Source of the DNA: a virus
Reading direction: 5' to 3' (one strand)
DNA: 22,081 bases
Virus record (IMG/VR): IMGVR_UViG_3300027906_000173
Location: 1-22,081 of that record
Below the pieces are notes generated by a model, which saw nothing but the letters and a program-made list of their open reading frames with translations, was not told where the DNA came from and ran no database searches. Made by a program: the position numbers and the translations under genes. Shown one piece after another: positions 2,906 through 10,836 of the stretch (position 1 is its first letter; every line of letters begins with the position of its first letter).

Positions 2906-4414
2906 ATGTCCTTACCTAAATTACAAAAAGATATGAAAATTCTTGCTGAATACCTTGAAGGTAAGGGAGCAGGCTCTAAAGGAGCTTTGCGTCAAGATAT
3001 GAATACTCAAGGACATGAGTTTACTTTCTCTGAGAAACAAATTATTGAAGAGCTAAAGAGTATTAAAAATCGTTTCGATAGTGCAAATAAAAGGAGTGCT
3101 GATAAAAAAGTTAAAAAAAGTTTTGCATTTGACGCTTCTGCTGATGATCGAGTTTTTAAAGGAGAAATGGACAATAGAATTAAAGCTTTTGCGACTACAT
3201 TAGTAAATAAATTAAAAGCAAGGTATTCGAGCCTTGCAAGTAATAATTATGTTAAATGGGTTTTTGTACGAAATACTACAGGATTCACCATAAAAGGAGA
3301 TGTAGAGTGGAAACCCGGAACCCCTCAGCCTACAAATGTTTATAATGTAATAAGAGAAGAGCTATCGGCCGCACAAGTAGAAATGCGAGAAGACTTTGCA
3401 GACATATTCTATAGAGCAGACAAAAGTTTAACAAAAGTAGAGGGACTTTTTAATGTTGGACATGATATAGGAGTAGTAGAGAGAAAGCTAGGCGCAATTA
3501 ATACATTTTTACAAACTTTAGAAGGAGAAGTAGGGGCATTTGCACCAGAACTGCAAACTGTATTTAAGAAGTGGCTAGCAGAGTTGGAGATAAACGCCGA
3601 AGTTATAACTACAGTAGATGCTAGAGGTGGTGTATTAAAAACAGATTTAAAAATAACTACTAATATAGAAAGTTGGTTTAATAATCAATTAGTAAGAAAT
3701 AAAAGAGAAACTGCTTTAGGAAAAGCTATTCAAGCAGTGGACAAGAAAACTTTAAAGCAGAAAGGCGATACTTTAATAAAAAGACTTATAGATAGAATTG
3801 AAAAGTTTTATGAGTCGAAAAATGATTATACAGATGAAGAGATAGCTTCTGATTCCTTACGTAAACAAATAGGAAAGTCTTTTGTCTTATCTCCCACAAT
3901 GAGAAGATTACAAAAGAAAGGTTTAGTAAAAAATCTTTCTCAATATACAGGAAAAGCTCCTGCGAGTAAAAAAACTCCAAAAGCCAAAGGAATAATTAAA
4001 ACAGAACACAAAACATCTAGGAGTAAACCTAAGAAAATAATTTCTAACATGGGAGCTGCTCCAACTATAAAAAGAAGTACTGCTGAAAGCCCTAACAGCA
4101 CAGGAAATTTAGTAGCACTACTTAATGCAAAACTGCCACAAACAGTGGCAAGGAACATGGGACCACCAGGTCTAGAGAACCAAACAGGACGTTTCGCCAG
4201 CAGTGTACGAGTAACAGATGTTAGTCAAACTGCTCAAGGGCACCCTAGCGTTGGTTATTCTTATCAGAAGAATCCTTATCAAGTATTTGAGATGTCACAT
4301 GGAGACCCTAGATGGGCTACTCCAGATCGAGACCCTCGAAAACTGATAGATGCTTCTATAAGAGAGATCGCATCCCAGTTAGCAATGGGAAGATTTTATA
4401 CACGGAGAATATAA
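2906..4414 (+). CDS. Virion-associated protein with neck-like C-terminal domain
   Basis: A 502-aa, lysine-rich and largely helical protein that I do not recognise as a whole. Residues 1-345 are predicted mixed helix with charged segments (for example EKQIIEELKSIKNRFDSANK). Residues about 346-385 are a basic, proline-containing linker (KAPASKKTPKAKGI...). Residues about 395-502 form a distinct domain with NQTGRFASSVRV, a Tyr-rich strand (VGYSYQKNPYQVFEMS) and RDPRKLIDASIREIASQL near the end. The 'TGR.a.S.rv...Y.vFE...RdP..li..aireia' pattern resembles HK97-gp10-type neck or tail-completion domains, which is inference. It sits between two tube-like genes, where lambda has nothing comparable. 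ATG is preceded by GGAG (2897-2900), and the stop directly abuts the next GTG start. Confidence 0.5.
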   Translation: MSLPKLQKDMKILAEYLEGKGAGSKGALRQDMNTQGHEFTFSEKQIIEELKSIKNRFDSANKRSADKKVKKSFAFDASADDRVFKGEMDNRIKAFATTLVNKLKARYSSLASNNYVKWVFVRNTTGFTIKGDVEWKPGTPQPTNVYNVIREELSAAQVEMREDFADIFYRADKSLTKVEGLFNVGHDIGVVERKLGAINTFLQTLEGEVGAFAPELQTVFKKWLAELEINAEVITTVDARGGVLKTDLKITTNIESWFNNQLVRNKRETALGKAIQAVDKKTLKQKGDTLIKRLIDRIEKFYESKNDYTDEEIASDSLRKQIGKSFVLSPTMRRLQKKGLVKNLSQYTGKAPASKKTPKAKGIIKTEHKTSRSKPKKIISNMGAAPTIKRSTAESPNSTGNLVALLNAKLPQTVARNMGPPGLENQTGRFASSVRVTDVSQTAQGHPSVGYSYQKNPYQVFEMSHGDPRWATPDRDPRKLIDASIREIASQLAMGRFYTRRI

Positions 4415-5320
4415 GTGGAATTTTTTAGAGATATTGATACCTATATGTACTATGGTGGACACTTTTATAAGTTACACGTACAAAACATATCCTTTAGTCA
4501 AACTTTTAGGCAAAGAGGTTCTAAAAAGAAAACTATACATACTCCTACAAAATTGATAGAAGGTTCAGAAATTAATGAGGCCAATCCGGCTAATTTTGAA
4601 CTAGAATTGCTAATGGTTGATGAGAGCTCTCGCTATCAACACTACCCTATTCAGGCACTTTTAAGTAATACAAACGATACTCTAACTACTTTTGATTTAT
4701 ATATTGATCCTTCTGTAGCAAGTGATGCTTCTAGAAAAATGTATAAACTTACCACATGTGTATTAGAGTCCGGATCTTTTAGTATTAATAGAGGAGAACT
4801 TATGATAGCTTCTTTATCAGGAACTGCTTCTAAATTAACTAGAGAGAATTATACTGCTTTTAATATTGGAAGTTTCATTACTTCAGCTAACACTACTTAT
4901 GCTATACCTAAGACAGTAAATGTAACAGTAGCAGGTACAGTATTAGAAAATGTTACGGGTATAAGTCTAGAAGTTCAGAACAATATAAAATGGACAAAAA
5001 ATAATACTTTACAAAAATCTTTAACAGCAGTTACTGCCAGTAGTTCTACTTATCCGACATCTTTTAGCTTGGAAGGAAGGGATGTAGCAGGCAATATTAC
5101 TTCTTATGTTGGATCACAGATTTCAGATATACAAACTTGGAAGGAAAACATCACAGTAAGAATACAGGCAGGAATAGCCTCTAATAACTATCAATTAGAC
5201 GCTAATCTAACCCCCTGTTCTTTTACAAATAGAGTAAGCACTACAGAAGTGTTTACTCAAGGGTACGACTTTCGTATGATAGGAAGCCCAACGAACTTAA
5301 ATACTTTATTCACTTATTAG
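4415..5320 (+). CDS. Second tail-tube-like protein
   Basis: A 301-aa beta-rich protein starting with GTG, with GGAG at 4404-4407. The start directly abuts the preceding stop. Its plan follows the larger tube protein at 1411-2862: an early strand ISFSQTFRQRG (compare FSFSQSTNSSE), a hydrophobic strand pair NFELELLMVDE (compare VEWSFSTYIRP), MYKLTTCVLESGSFSINRGE followed by SLSGTASKLT (compare YKLNKAVVNSATINFDVEG followed by WSGMAATI), and a C-terminal half with ISLEVQNNIKW (compare ITIENNISYL). It lacks the inserted domain. Possible jobs are a minor tube subunit, a tube initiator ring or a distal-end adaptor; the position before the chaperone genes supports a tail role. Paralogy is inferred from weak by-eye similarity. 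Confidence 0.6.
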   Translation: MEFFRDIDTYMYYGGHFYKLHVQNISFSQTFRQRGSKKKTIHTPTKLIEGSEINEANPANFELELLMVDESSRYQHYPIQALLSNTNDTLTTFDLYIDPSVASDASRKMYKLTTCVLESGSFSINRGELMIASLSGTASKLTRENYTAFNIGSFITSANTTYAIPKTVNVTVAGTVLENVTGISLEVQNNIKWTKNNTLQKSLTAVTASSSTYPTSFSLEGRDVAGNITSYVGSQISDIQTWKENITVRIQAGIASNNYQLDANLTPCSFTNRVSTTEVFTQGYDFRMIGSPTNLNTLFTY

Positions 5321-5331
5321 GAGAAAAAACA

Positions 5332-5781
5332 GTGAAATTAGAAGACTTAATGGTAGATACTAAGACAGCATGGATCGAGTTTCCTGGCTGCGACGGTTTT
5401 GAAGTAGAAGTAGCAAATCTTTCAAGAAAAGAGCTATTAAACTTACGAAAGCGATGTATCAAAACAAAATTTGACAGAAAAACTCATCAAGCAGTGGAAG
5501 AGCTGGACGAAGATAAATTTGTTCACGAATTCACTAAAGCCACTGTAAAGGATTGGAGAGGATTAAAACTAAAATATTTAGAAGAGTTAATCTTAGTAGA
5601 GCTAGGTGATAATGATCCAGAAGCAGATTTAGCTTTTGATTTAGAAAATGCTGAATCACTGGTTCAAAACTCTACAGATTTTGATAACTGGATAAACGAG
5701 GTGGTCTTTGACCTTGCCAATTTTCGTGGAAAGCCAGAAAGAAAAACTGTGGGAAAGACTAGAAAAGTGGCAGAAGCATAA
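5332..5781 (+). CDS. Tail assembly chaperone (gpG-like)
   Basis: A 149-aa acidic/basic alpha-helical protein, predicted to bind the tape measure protein and bring tube subunits to it during tail assembly; it should not be in the mature virion. Motifs visible are WIEFPGCDGFEVEVANLSRKEL at the start, a long helical section with KFVHEFTKATVKDWRGLKLKYL, and a basic tail. The fold layout (short strand pair, then 'Ls+kel..lrk', then 'W.glk...l.el') is that of phage tail assembly chaperones placed just before the tape measure gene. Start GTG is supported by AGGAG at 5319-5323, which overlaps the previous stop codon. Its last 86 bases overlap the T-like frame, and the sequence GGGAAAG occurs in register at 5751-5757. 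Confidence 0.8.
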   Translation: MKLEDLMVDTKTAWIEFPGCDGFEVEVANLSRKELLNLRKRCIKTKFDRKTHQAVEELDEDKFVHEFTKATVKDWRGLKLKYLEELILVELGDNDPEADLAFDLENAESLVQNSTDFDNWINEVVFDLANFRGKPERKTVGKTRKVAEA

Positions 5782-6115
5782 AGACTCAAAAATGGATAAG
5801 AACAGATACTTATCCATGATGGAGGAACTAGGACAAGACCCAGTACAGGAAGAGATACCTCCGGGAATAGAAGATTTTCCGGAAATAGTAATAGATGGCA
5901 TAAATACTTTTAATAGTTTAGGGGATAGAATATATCCCGAGATAGGTTACATAGGAAAAGACTATACTAATTTACCCCTTTATATAGAAATGTATAAAAT
6001 TAAAGAAAAAGATACATTTTTAGAAATTATACTGAGGTTAGATGCAGAAGCTATCCAAAGCTCGCAAGAAAAATTAAAGCGAGAGTACGATAGAATGAAA
6101 AGGAAAAGCAAATAG
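5708..6115 (+). CDS. T-like extension of tail chaperone, frameshift product
   Basis: This frame is open from 5696 (in-frame TAA at 5693-5695) to TAG at 6113-6115. It has no convincing start of its own: the first possible starts are TTG 5708, lying inside the G-like gene, and ATG 5792 with a poor ribosome site. The peptide carries RYLSMMEELGQDPVQEEIPP, IEDFPEIVIDGINTFN, LGDRIYPEIGYIGKDYTNLP and a charged helical end. The 'MMe.LG..P...e.Pp...dFP......fn.L.DRi....GY.GKDYt' pattern fits the C-terminal half of frameshifted tail assembly chaperones (gpGT in lambda). It is therefore probably made mainly as a fusion to the preceding protein. Reaching this frame from the G frame needs +1 or -2. The stop overlaps the tape measure start by one base. 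Confidence 0.75.
   Translation: MTLPIFVESQKEKLWERLEKWQKHKDSKMDKNRYLSMMEELGQDPVQEEIPPGIEDFPEIVIDGINTFNSLGDRIYPEIGYIGKDYTNLPLYIEMYKIKEKDTFLEIILRLDAEAIQSSQEKLKREYDRMKRKSK
5742..5757 (+). promoter_or_regulatory. Candidate programmed frameshift region
   Basis: Inside the G/T overlap the G frame reads AGA AAA ACT GTG GGA AAG. GGGAAAG at 5751-5757 has the lambda G/GT slip sequence in the right register (G GGA AAG), but a -1 slip there gives GAC and then TAG (5760-5762), not the T frame. Five A at 5742-5746 allow a lysine tRNA to re-pair perfectly after a +1 shift (AAA 5743-5745 to 5744-5746), which enters the T frame at CTG 5747. A +1 event there would give 138 + 122 = 260 residues. Which site works cannot be settled from sequence. 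Confidence 0.45.
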
Positions 6116-9100
6116 TGGCTAAGAACGGTAGTGTAATATTTGAAGTTAGAGCTGAGGGCAAAAACCTAAAGGTTGTTCAGAGAGACGTTGACGCTGTAGC
6201 AAGCGGCGTTGAACGGACTGACACTGCCCGAAAGAAAGCTGGCAAAGGTCAGGACGCCTATAATAAACGAGAAAAAGCTCTGTATCAAAGTGGCTTATCC
6301 TCTGCAAAAGGCTTCTCAAAAATGAGTCAAACAATCGGAGGAGGATCCTCCGGTCTTGTTGGTGCTTATGCTACTTTGGCTGCTAACGTATTTGCTGCTA
6401 CTGCTGCTTTTCAAGTGTTAAAAGAAGCTGCTCAATTTGAAAACTTAGTTCAAGGACTAGAGCAAGTAGGAGCCTCCGCAGGACGAAATCTTACTTTTGC
6501 TTCCGAAAAACTAAGAGAAGTCTCTGGGTATGCTTTATCTACAGAGAAAGCTATGCGTTCAATGGCGTTAGGAATCTCTTCAGGATTTAGTACTGAACAA
6601 ATGGAGGGCCTTACGGAGATAGCAAGGGGTGCCTCAATAGCTTTAGGCAGAGATATGGGCGATGCGATGGATCGTTTAACTAGAGGTGCTGCAAAGTTAG
6701 AACCTGAAATTTTGGATGAATTAGGTATTATGGTTCGATTGGACGATGCTACTGAAGAGTATGCTACTAGTTTAGGAAAAACCGCTTCGCAATTAACTCA
6801 GTTTGAAAGACGACAAGCATTTCTTAATGCCATATTAGAGCAGGGAGAGGCTAAATTTGGTCAATTAGCGGATTCCGTAGACCCTAACCCTTACGATAAG
6901 TTGTCTGCTTCTTTATCTAATTTACAGAAAACTGTGGTTAGTGCTTTTAATGTAGTTTTAGGTCCCATTATTAATTTAATGTCAGAAAGTCAGGCGGCAC
7001 TAGCGGCTGGAGTTACTTTATTTGCTTCTACTATTGTTCGTACGATGATCCCTTCTTTAAATAACTTATCACAAGGAATGGCAAATAACGCAAAAAGAGG
7101 AGCAGATTTAGCAAAAACTCAAGCACAAAATTTAGATGTAAGTACTAAACTTCCCAAAGCCTATAGAGAGGCTGTAAAAGGAATGGATGACGGAACAATA
7201 TCGGCAGGAGGTTATAAAGAGGCTATGAACAGCTTGAATGCCTCCGATAGAAAGTATATCGAAAATATGGATGCGAAAGAGGCAGCGAAAAAGACAGAAG
7301 GAGCCTCTTATAAAAAATCCGCTCTGGGAGTAAAGGAAAATAATATAGCAAGACTTCAGCTCGTTAGAACGTATAAGCTACAACAAGTAGCGGCTGCTAA
7401 ACAGTCTATGGCTAACGCAGTAGAAGCCGGTTCCCAACAAGGGTTACGGGCAGGGTTTAAGGCCTTAGTCGTTTCAGTACACGAATTAAACGCAGCCAAG
7501 ATGGTGGGAGTTACCTCAGCAATTTCTCTTAGAGCTGCTTGGGCAATGTTACAAACAGGAGCACTTGCTACTGCCGGAGCTGTTAAAGTGCTTGGGGCTT
7601 CTTTAATGGCTGCTTTAGGTTGGATTTCTTTAATTGCAAGTGTAGGTTTTATGATTTATGAACTATTTAAAGATAAGCTTTTTCCAGTTTCTGAAACAGA
7701 AGAAAAAGCAGGAAAAATAATAGAATCTTTAAAGTCGGTCGAAGGGGTGGCTACTTCTTTTCAAAAAACAATGGATACAGTAGAAGATCCGGCTTCCGTA
7801 GCTATAGCAGGGTACACAGCTCTTTTAGGTGTAATGCAAGATTTAAAAACAAATTTATTAGATGTTACTAGAACTGCTGAAAGTGCTATTGCTAGACAAA
7901 ATAAAGCATTTGACGATTTACAAAGAGAAAAACAAAAGATAGTGGAAGAGTCAGAAAAGAAGATAACAGAAATAGAAGAGACACACTGGCTTATGCGTAC
8001 TACTCGACAGAAAATAGCCTTGCGGGAGGCTCGTAGTGCTCGTAACGAGGCTAATAATGACATAGTAAAGGCAGAAAAAGAAAAGAATGAGAAAATAGAA
8101 AAAGAAAATGCAGATAGAAAAGATGGTTTGTTAAAAATACTTGATCAAACTACGGCGGGCATAAGAAGTTCAGAAGGTTTTGGGGCCTTTTCAAAGATAC
8201 AATTAGCAGGTATAGACGCCTTAAAGGAAAAGATTCAAAACCTTAAACCAGGAGAAGCTTTATCTGTGGACGAAATAAAGACCGCAATGGATAGTATGAT
8301 AACTCCTGTAGGAACTATAGTTGAAACTTTTAAAGGGGCAAGAGATGCTGCTTCAGAGTTTAATAAAGAAGTTAATAAATTAAATCAAAAACAACAAACA
8401 CCTTTTGATAATGCAATTACAGCCGCGGAAGGACTAGGTCAGAAATTTCTAGAACTAGAAAAAGGCTACGCAGGCATGACTGATAAAGATAATATATCAG
8501 ACGAATTAAAGGAACAAAGACAGGAACTAATAAAAGCGCTTAAAAAGCAGATGGGTACAGATAAAGCTATTGGCGAAGAAGCAATTAATAAATATATTAA
8601 ATCTTTAAAAGACGCTAGGCAAGCTATTATTGATAATAGAGAAGAGGTAAAAAGGCTACAATCAGCACAAAAGGCTTCAGCACGTTTTACTAAAGAAATT
8701 GGTGGAGTAGCCGCTATGAGAAATCAATTGGATATTCAACAAAAGCTTCGAGATGCAAAAATGAATGGTATACAGGCAGAAATTGACGCCAATATAAAGT
8801 TAAGAGGTAATCTAACGAAAGAGCATCGAAAGGAAATAGAAGCTATTGAAGATAAAGCAGAGAGAACAAATAAACTCGAATCTTTTGATAAACAGAGAAA
8901 GAAAGTATTAGAAGATATTAATGGATTGGGTATTAAAATGACTGAGTCTATTCAACAAAATCAAGTTGAGCAAGCAAAAGAACTATATGAATTAGAAATG
9001 GCTCGTATAGACATGGCTAAAAGGTTATTAGATGTAAGAGGACAAATGTTAGCAGTTCAAAAGACAGAACTTAATAATCAAATGAAACTATCCGAAATGG

Positions 9101-10836
9101 AGATGCAATTAGAAAATGCCAAAAATAGAGCAAGGTCCCGTACTGAGGGTATAGATCTTAGGCCCGCTCAACAACTAAGACAGTTTCAAAAATTTGCGGC
9201 TCAACGCATGCAGATTGCACTAGCTGAATATAACATGACTGTAGCAAAGGTTCAGATTGAAAGAGCTTTGCTTACCGCAAAAACAAAATTGATAGAAGCG
9301 GAGTTAAGAGCTTTAAAAGAGAAAACAGAAGACAAAAAAGAAAAGGATAACCTACAAGCTATTATAGATAGTGTGGCTACAATACCAGATGCTATGTCGC
9401 AAGTCTTTGACGCACAAGTTGCATCAGCCCAAACTACTTTAGATATGGCCAATAAGTCTTTAGACATTGAAAGAGAAAAACTACGTTTAGCTAATTTAAC
9501 TAGCATAACAGGAGGTTCTGCGAAAGGTGCAGTAAACCAAAAAGGGATGTTAAATTTTGCTAATGAGATGAGAGATACTATGGACATGGCCATGGAATCC
9601 GGTAAACAATCTTGGAGAGACAAACAAATACAAGATACTAAGGACTTCGAAATAGAGTATGGCATAACTTTATCTGATCAAGATTGGGCGGATTTTGAAG
9701 AAGCGCTTACGGAAAGAATGGGGACTATGAGCCTGGGAGAGGCTTTTGAAAACTTAAACCTAGCAGAACAATTGGACTTTGCACTAACTCCTTTGTCAAA
9801 TATGTTTACAATGCTGTCTGAAATGGGAGGAGAACACTCTAATTTATTCGCGGCTTTAGGTAGTTCAATGACCAATATTACGGGCGCTATGAATGTATTT
9901 AATGAGACAGGTGCGCTTGATAATATGAATACATTGTTCAGCGAAGGATTTAAAAATATAGATATGGGCACGTTGGAGGGTGCGGGTACTGCTATTACCG
10001 GTATAGCCGCAGGAGTGGGTGCAGTAGCTCAAGGATTAGCTTCTGTTTACCAGATAAAAGCGGCTCAAACTGCAGATAGAATAGCACAAATTGATAAAGA
10101 AATTGCAGCAACGAAAAGACTGTATGGAGGAACCAAAAAAGGTGAAAAGATGGTTGCTGAACTTGAAAAGAAAAAAGAAGCAGCAAAGAAGAAACAATTC
10201 CAACAAAATAAGAAAGCAATGATAGCTCAAGCTATAGCAGGAACCGCTTTAGGTATAGTAGGTGCTTTAGGTAGCCAGCCTTGGACTCCTTTTAACTTTG
10301 TCATGGCAGGAATCGTTGCTGCTATAGGCGCATACCAGTTAGCTGTTATCTCTTCTATGTCGTATCAAGGAGGGGGCTCGGCAGGAGGAGGACCTGCTGT
10401 ACCACAATCAGTATCTATGGGGGAGAGAAAAAATAAAGTAGACACTAGGGGAGGAAATGTAGCCGGAGAACTTGCTTATATGCGAGGGGAGAGAGGCGTA
10501 GGTACAGGAGCCAGTAACTTTACTCCTGCTTTTACAGGTTATCGGCACAGGGCAACCGGTGGAGCCGCCTATGTTGTTGGGGAGCAAGGACCCGAGTTAT
10601 TTGTTCCAGAAGTACCAGGACAGATAGTAGCAAATGACGAAATAGCAGAAGGAGGAGCTGCTATAACTGCGAACTTTACAATCAATACTATTGATGCTTC
10701 TACTATGGAACAAACTCTTAATACTCAAAGAGGGAATATAATTAATATGATAAGGGAGGCCGCGAATAATTCAGGAGAGCCTTTCTTAGAAAGCGTAGAT
10801 ACGCTAGGTTTACAAACACAGGGAGGAACAACCTAA
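6115..10836 (+). CDS. Tape measure protein
   Basis: A 1573-aa protein that fills the tail tube, sets its length and leaves with the DNA at infection. Residues 1-290 are the conserved N-terminal domain (VIFEVRAEGKNLKVVQRDVD; GLVGAYATLAANVFAATAAF; a helical bundle with ALGRDMGDAMDRLTRGAAKLEP). Hydrophobic segments lie at about 78-102, 292-312, 471-517, 1290-1312 and 1368-1417, suited to membrane insertion during DNA entry. Between them are long charged helices, probably coiled coil (about 590-690 and 700-1130). The C-terminus has a glycine-rich stretch and YVVGEQGPELFVPEVPGQIV near 1485-1505, a motif typical of tape measure C-termini. No lysozyme or peptidase motif was noticed. Start GTG with AGGAAA (6100-6105); the start overlaps the T-like stop by one base. 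Confidence 0.93.
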   Translation: MAKNGSVIFEVRAEGKNLKVVQRDVDAVASGVERTDTARKKAGKGQDAYNKREKALYQSGLSSAKGFSKMSQTIGGGSSGLVGAYATLAANVFAATAAFQVLKEAAQFENLVQGLEQVGASAGRNLTFASEKLREVSGYALSTEKAMRSMALGISSGFSTEQMEGLTEIARGASIALGRDMGDAMDRLTRGAAKLEPEILDELGIMVRLDDATEEYATSLGKTASQLTQFERRQAFLNAILEQGEAKFGQLADSVDPNPYDKLSASLSNLQKTVVSAFNVVLGPIINLMSESQAALAAGVTLFASTIVRTMIPSLNNLSQGMANNAKRGADLAKTQAQNLDVSTKLPKAYREAVKGMDDGTISAGGYKEAMNSLNASDRKYIENMDAKEAAKKTEGASYKKSALGVKENNIARLQLVRTYKLQQVAAAKQSMANAVEAGSQQGLRAGFKALVVSVHELNAAKMVGVTSAISLRAAWAMLQTGALATAGAVKVLGASLMAALGWISLIASVGFMIYELFKDKLFPVSETEEKAGKIIESLKSVEGVATSFQKTMDTVEDPASVAIAGYTALLGVMQDLKTNLLDVTRTAESAIARQNKAFDDLQREKQKIVEESEKKITEIEETHWLMRTTRQKIALREARSARNEANNDIVKAEKEKNEKIEKENADRKDGLLKILDQTTAGIRSSEGFGAFSKIQLAGIDALKEKIQNLKPGEALSVDEIKTAMDSMITPVGTIVETFKGARDAASEFNKEVNKLNQKQQTPFDNAITAAEGLGQKFLELEKGYAGMTDKDNISDELKEQRQELIKALKKQMGTDKAIGEEAINKYIKSLKDARQAIIDNREEVKRLQSAQKASARFTKEIGGVAAMRNQLDIQQKLRDAKMNGIQAEIDANIKLRGNLTKEHRKEIEAIEDKAERTNKLESFDKQRKKVLEDINGLGIKMTESIQQNQVEQAKELYELEMARIDMAKRLLDVRGQMLAVQKTELNNQMKLSEMEMQLENAKNRARSRTEGIDLRPAQQLRQFQKFAAQRMQIALAEYNMTVAKVQIERALLTAKTKLIEAELRALKEKTEDKKEKDNLQAIIDSVATIPDAMSQVFDAQVASAQTTLDMANKSLDIEREKLRLANLTSITGGSAKGAVNQKGMLNFANEMRDTMDMAMESGKQSWRDKQIQDTKDFEIEYGITLSDQDWADFEEALTERMGTMSLGEAFENLNLAEQLDFALTPLSNMFTMLSEMGGEHSNLFAALGSSMTNITGAMNVFNETGALDNMNTLFSEGFKNIDMGTLEGAGTAITGIAAGVGAVAQGLASVYQIKAAQTADRIAQIDKEIAATKRLYGGTKKGEKMVAELEKKKEAAKKKQFQQNKKAMIAQAIAGTALGIVGALGSQPWTPFNFVMAGIVAAIGAYQLAVISSMSYQGGGSAGGGPAVPQSVSMGERKNKVDTRGGNVAGELAYMRGERGVGTGASNFTPAFTGYRHRATGGAAYVVGEQGPELFVPEVPGQIVANDEIAEGGAAITANFTINTIDASTMEQTLNTQRGNIINMIREAANNSGEPFLESVDTLGLQTQGGTT

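Follow-up and report, generated by a model that had tools for sequence, protein, structure and literature searches.

The tail genes analysed here raise the question of how two overlapping chaperone reading frames, G-like and T-like, are joined when their offset bars the −1 shift used in phage lambda. The window, a stretch of 22,081 nucleotides covering positions 1 to 22,081 of IMG/VR virus record IMGVR_UViG_3300027906_000173, carries T5-type tail genes in the order tail terminator, tube protein, p143-like protein, p140-type baseplate tube protein, G, T, tape measure protein and pb9-type distal tail protein (Table 1). Both frames resemble tail assembly chaperones, G matching PHROG 313 (E = 3.7e-17) and T matching PHROG 3914 (E = 1.7e-17). 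When one base is skipped, so that CGTG is read as V, the resulting fusion matches PHROG 313 in a single stretch (residues 9–250). As in lambda, whose G and GT proteins are made with a −1 shift (PMC5009743), G and T overlap in different frames directly 5' of the tape measure gene. The tape measure protein has 1573 residues, and its GTG start shares one base with the T stop codon, which suggests coupled translation. Further upstream, the C-terminal part of the 502-residue product of ORF 2906–4414 gives a weak match to the tail completion protein p143 of T5 (~255 residues), and no match was found for its long N-terminal extension. A tRNA search of the window found none.

Direct reading showed that the G frame begins at a position equal to 1 modulo 3 and the T frame at 2 modulo 3, and that the T frame is open over 5696–6112, between TAA 5693–5695 and TAG 6113–6115. 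G and T can be joined only by a +1 or a −2 shift, in agreement with an earlier note on this DNA, which had held that the offset bars a −1 join. The slippery heptamer of lambda is GGGAAAG, and the same heptamer is found here in the lambda register. As the earlier note had also stated, a −1 slip at this place reads GGG AAA GAC TAG and terminates at TAG 5760–5762. That note had proposed a rarer +1 or −2 event and had pointed to a run of five A, which is indeed present at 5742–5746. Our analysis supports an event of this kind and strongly favours +1, but places it at TTT CGT 5722–5727 and not at the A5 run or GGGAAAG; the site lies 20 nt upstream of both candidates and inside the interval 5696–5790 that had been singled out.

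Table 1 Features of the chaperone locus and its neighbours in the window.
Feature	Position	Strand	Details
Baseplate tube protein, T5 p140 type, gene 5' of G	4415..5320	+	Pfam PF23779, E = 3e-13; order as in T5 relatives
G-like tail assembly chaperone	5332..5781	+	149 aa; GTG start, TAA 5779–5781; PHROG 313, structural matches
TAA closing the T frame upstream	5693..5695	+	Direct reading; bars T translation from farther upstream
Upstream element GAGGTGGTC (consensus GAGGTAGTC)	5698..5706	+	Wobble conservation, marine group; Shine-Dalgarno-like
Proposed +1 shift site UUU_CGU	5722..5727	+	TTT CGN conservation, wobble invariance, short overlaps
T domain, +1 frame from the proposed shift site	5723..6115	+	TAG 6113–6115; PHROG 3914; predicted G-T fusion 260 aa
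A5 run, candidate of the earlier note	5742..5746	+	Not conserved, 19/85 loci
GGGAAAG, lambda-like heptamer	5751..5757	+	Not conserved, 4/85 loci; runs into TAG 5760–5762
Tape measure protein, next gene 3'	6115..10836	+	GTG start; position after chaperone as in T5 relatives

The comparison of frame offsets with homologous phages that the earlier note had proposed gave +1 throughout. T lies in the +1 frame in all 30 IMG/VR homologues first examined. The same holds for a set of 118 distinct homologous loci assembled from IMG/VR homologues, further scans and phage records, every one of which (118/118) also carries the codon pair TTT CGT, TTT CGC or TTT CGA. A DNA pattern that takes no account of the site itself, representing a conserved protein stretch that ends two codons before it, retrieved 110 distinct readable loci, all of them +1 with TTT CGT or TTT CGC (110/110); this set and the previous one partly overlap, both drawing on IMG/VR, and their loci are related, so that the counts are of non-independent events. 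The same offset and a TTT CGN site are present in T5 itself (T5.143 and T5.142), and offset and site recur in further phages of Vibrio, Enterobacter, Klebsiella, Salmonella and Aeromonas. When the fusion was run through tblastn, those of the listed matches that came in two pieces and took in most of the query measured 772, 760 or 751 nt, in every case a multiple of three plus one. The offset is common to independent assemblies and to cultured phages, which excludes a sequencing error and, on the same grounds, refutes the idea, raised in the earlier note, of a base missing between 5757 and about 5762. No relatives turned up when bacterial and archaeal genomes were scanned.

The site itself stands out from its surroundings. 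When the final Phe-Arg of G is used to anchor an alignment of T5, pVp-1, DU_PP_V, phiR2-01, Gary, PM135, Klebsiella and marine sequences, no run other than TTTCG is invariant, and TTTCG is likewise the sole invariant run between the window and the T5, Vibrio, Proteus, Pectobacterium and Yersinia phages. In the G protein, the invariant Phe-Arg is followed by tails that vary in length and sequence. The T frame is closed directly before the site in 48 of the 85 non-redundant loci, and the overlap can be very short: 17 nt in pVp-1 and, at its shortest, 14 nt in Vibrio phage 70E35.6 (AC AAC TTT CGT TAA). Within overlaps of 14–17 nt, UUU to UUC is the sole good re-pairing, the moves AAC to ACU and CGU to GUU and those by −2 being poor; in the 14-nt overlap of 70E35.6, no good re-pairing is left but that of tRNA-Phe, from UUU to UUC. 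The locus shows what defines a UUU_CGN site, namely a conserved in-frame UUU CGN inside the overlap and a downstream +1 ORF that a stop closes on its upstream side.

Selection on the site was traced on a tree of 145 sequences. The wobble base of the site Phe codon underwent 0 parsimony changes, compared with 8 and 10 at two other invariant Phe codons and often 20–60 at third positions. The first base of the site Arg codon also showed 0 changes on this tree, though AGA makes up 56% of the Arg codons in G. In 70 representatives, frame 0 shows high amino acid identity as far as the site and mostly 0.1–0.3 beyond it, and reading downstream of the site the T frame becomes the better conserved one. 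The variable nucleotide positions shift register at the site too. Elsewhere in these phages (504 ORFs), TTT accounts for 42% of Phe codons before CGN versus 65% before the remaining codons that start with C (Fisher p = 5.9e-9), and no comparable fall was seen for 13 other T/C-ending codon pairs pooled. These figures suggest that a tendency to shift makes UUU_CGN disfavoured elsewhere, but not strictly so. Indeed, three more in-frame TTT CGT pairs occur within long ORFs of the window, at 5270, 12047 and 18050; the hexamer by itself can therefore be no strong signal and must depend on its context. Nor is CGU especially rare in these phages (7 per thousand). Low-level shifting at the three additional pairs would yield truncated proteins.

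Part of this context may lie upstream. The element GAGGTAGTC, GAGGTGGTC in the window, occupies positions −24 to −16 from the site and has nearly fixed wobble positions in the marine group. Its GAG is kept in 138 of 143 marine sequences versus 24% usage in G, and its GTC in 124 of the 143 versus 5% in G and 11% before TTY in other ORFs. The element is restricted to the marine group and is missing in T5. It shows partial complementarity to the 3' terminus of 16S rRNA, and its Shine-Dalgarno-like GAGGU ends 19 nt before the site, a distance unlike that in RF2. Judged from sequence, the element may be a stimulator of the shift. An RF2-type site (CUU_UGA with a Shine-Dalgarno 3 nt upstream) was rejected as a candidate, given that the codons here are UUU CGN and that GAGGU, marine only, is 19 nt away. 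Downstream of the site no conserved pseudoknot or stem was detected (mononucleotide-shuffle z near −1 for +6..+86, weaker elsewhere). RNAalifold returned only a 5-pair hairpin at −25..−12 with no pair changed on both sides, and an Rfam search gave nothing above gathering scores. Tentatively, and with more doubt than confidence, one may go further and regard UUU_CGN as an ancient phage-wide +1 signal, common to T5-like phages of enterobacteria, vibrios and Aeromonas and to abundant marine phages, with the marine GAGGURGUC as a new 5' stimulator that possibly pairs with the 16S rRNA 3' end.

G and T were modelled separately by AlphaFold, with models built on homologous loci. The G model has a C-terminal helix (115–133) that ends at Phe-Arg, with a low-confidence tail beyond it, and the T model has a helix from residue 2. 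As far as two separate models allow, the fusion would join helix to helix at the shift site. The best structural matches of G in BFVD are T5-type tape measure chaperones, with E values down to 4.5e-13; against the PDB only weak matches were obtained, including HK97 gp13 (2OB9, E = 3.5). T matched no PDB fold.

The frame offset, the conservation of the site, the switch of constraint between frames, the lack of an alternative T start and of a workable −2 or −1 re-pairing, and the avoidance of UUU_CGN elsewhere were established directly. On this sequence evidence we regard programmed +1 frameshifting at UUU_CGN in the tail chaperone of this marine phage, as in T5 and every relative examined, as very probable, and we infer that the shift takes place, how efficient it is and what both products do. 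In the proposed mechanism, most ribosomes would read G through to its stop at 5779. A minority would pause with the P site on UUU 5722–5724 and the A site on a waiting CGU, whereupon tRNA-Phe (anticodon GAA), which pairs better with UUC, would slide +1 onto UUC 5723–5725. From there the T frame (GUG GAA AGC ...) would be read as far as 6112, and the product would be a G-T fusion of 260 residues with the junction ...DLANF/VESQKEK.... By analogy with lambda, G would coat the tape measure protein and the T part would recruit tail tube subunits.

A −2 shift like that accepted for Mu gpGT (PMC3498833) would give the same net frame and could join G and T in the same short overlap; a joined chaperone product of 277 aa in the record of Salmonella phage Shivani fits −2, +1 giving 276. 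We consider this very unlikely, because the re-pairing fails. Most loci read AAC TTT or AAT TTT, where −2 puts tRNA-Phe on ACU or AUU, unpaired at the first codon position and, for ACU, at the second position too; more generally, the contexts AAC, AAT, CAC and TCC before TTT lead to ACU, AUU, ACU and CCU. Nor is any slippery run permitting −2 common to all loci, and the invariance of the third base of TTT together with that of the following C fits UUU to UUC only. Less probable still is translation of T from a start of its own (TTG 5708 or ATG 5793) with no frameshift at all. In the window, GAGGTGG does precede TTG 5708 at normal spacing, an ATG 22 codons into T is conserved in marine loci, and GenBank records list T as a separate gene. 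However, a T-frame stop lies at −8, directly after that TTG, in 53% of marine representatives. The conserved ATG has no Shine-Dalgarno and is absent from two loci (L035 and L036), where the first 45 T codons include no ATG at all. Moreover, T is conserved upstream of the ATG, from the shift site onward, and an own start would leave TTT and CGN without need of conservation. The strong independent T start in homologues that the earlier note had envisaged is thus not borne out: no conserved start codon with a Shine-Dalgarno was found.

The two sites named in the earlier note fare worse. That the window lacks a base and that the true event is a lambda-type −1 slip at GGGAAAG has almost no probability, in spite of the perfect −1 register of the heptamer: all independent loci share the +1 offset, 4 of the 85 loci carry GGGAAAG, and numerous G genes end before it. 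The heptamer arises where T encodes L-W-E-R-L, and being unconserved it gives no backing to the shortened G protein that had been suggested as a third product. An equally negligible chance is assigned to lysine tRNA re-pairing by +1 on the A5 run. AAA to AAA re-pairing would be perfect there, but the run is found at that place in only 19 of 85 loci and is absent in the other 66; in 15–16 of the 85 G has already stopped, and T-frame residues upstream of the run are already conserved.

The proposed +1 shift at UUU_CGN bears on how related phages are annotated. The annotated T5-like records examined give two separate genes or miss T, except that of Shivani (KP143763.1, 93207–94038), the sole T5-like record seen with a joined two-piece chaperone CDS, whose length implies −2; the Shivani genome paper does not discuss this CDS. 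In the partial record of Klebsiella phage vB_Kpn_3 (MZ079855.1), the chaperone and neighbouring tail genes are split into several short CDS, probably through sequencing errors. The Shenzhenvirus phages AhP_Mru1 (PV190393.1, Aeromonas) and vB_AdhS_TS3 (OP820700.1) look TAG-recoded, as the internal stops in G and T are all TAG. With TAG as sense, the ORFs of 300+ codons in AhP_Mru1 total 17239 aa instead of 6551 aa, and a tRNA gene with anticodon CUA is present in Shenzhenvirus (L292:1234–1308). These records are annotated with the standard code; the shift site there is TTT CGA. A full-text literature search, outside which most subscription papers lay, returned no report of a UUU_CGN site in phages, and priority is not proven.

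No frameshift signal was predicted in T5 in a T5-like genome paper (PMC6256483), so that the route of this model phage to G-T was open. The UUU_CGN +1 site is the likely answer and predicts a specific peptide in T5-infected E. coli, the T5 junction under +1 being ...HLDTF joined to VAQKRKE.... It would let hundreds of records be re-annotated as fusions, and would allow a motif described to date in influenza A and plant amalgaviruses to be studied in bacteria.

Compared with known systems, the locus combines features of several. It shares with lambda G/GT the gene order (tail tube genes, G, T, tape measure), a short G with a longer G-T, and a T that has no usable start of its own. The shift differs, being −1 at GGGAAAG by two-tRNA slippage in lambda, whereas here it would be +1 at UUU_CGN by a single tRNA, with no −1 heptamer able to join the frames. 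Mu gpGT (FS-gp41) is also a tail chaperone whose T lies in the same net frame, and FS-gp41 is a distant structural match of G, but Mu re-pairs by −2, which is unworkable at the site here. T5 and other Demerecviridae have the same genes (T5.143 and T5.142 in T5) with the +1 offset and the TTT CGN site, listed in their records as two separate genes. In tailed viruses, +1 shifting in a structural module, as proposed here, has been predicted for the tail chaperone of haloarchaeal virus HSTV-2 (PMC5009743) and is found at CCC sites in Listeria phages PSA, A118 and A500; the Listeria phages shift at proline codons of tail or capsid genes, and HSTV-2 represents a different gene lineage. The closest parallel at the codon level is influenza PA-X, in which UUU_CGU was proven as a +1 site by mass spectrometry (PMC3498833), together with the UUU_CGN +1 site proposed for plant amalgaviruses (PMC5052127). 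UCC_UUU_CGU of influenza A PA-X and UUU_CGN of amalgaviruses have the same P- and A-site codons, the same direction and the same UUU to UUC re-pairing as the site proposed here, but they operate in eukaryotic RNA viruses, on eukaryotic ribosomes and for other proteins, whereas here the E site mostly holds AAY or ACT.
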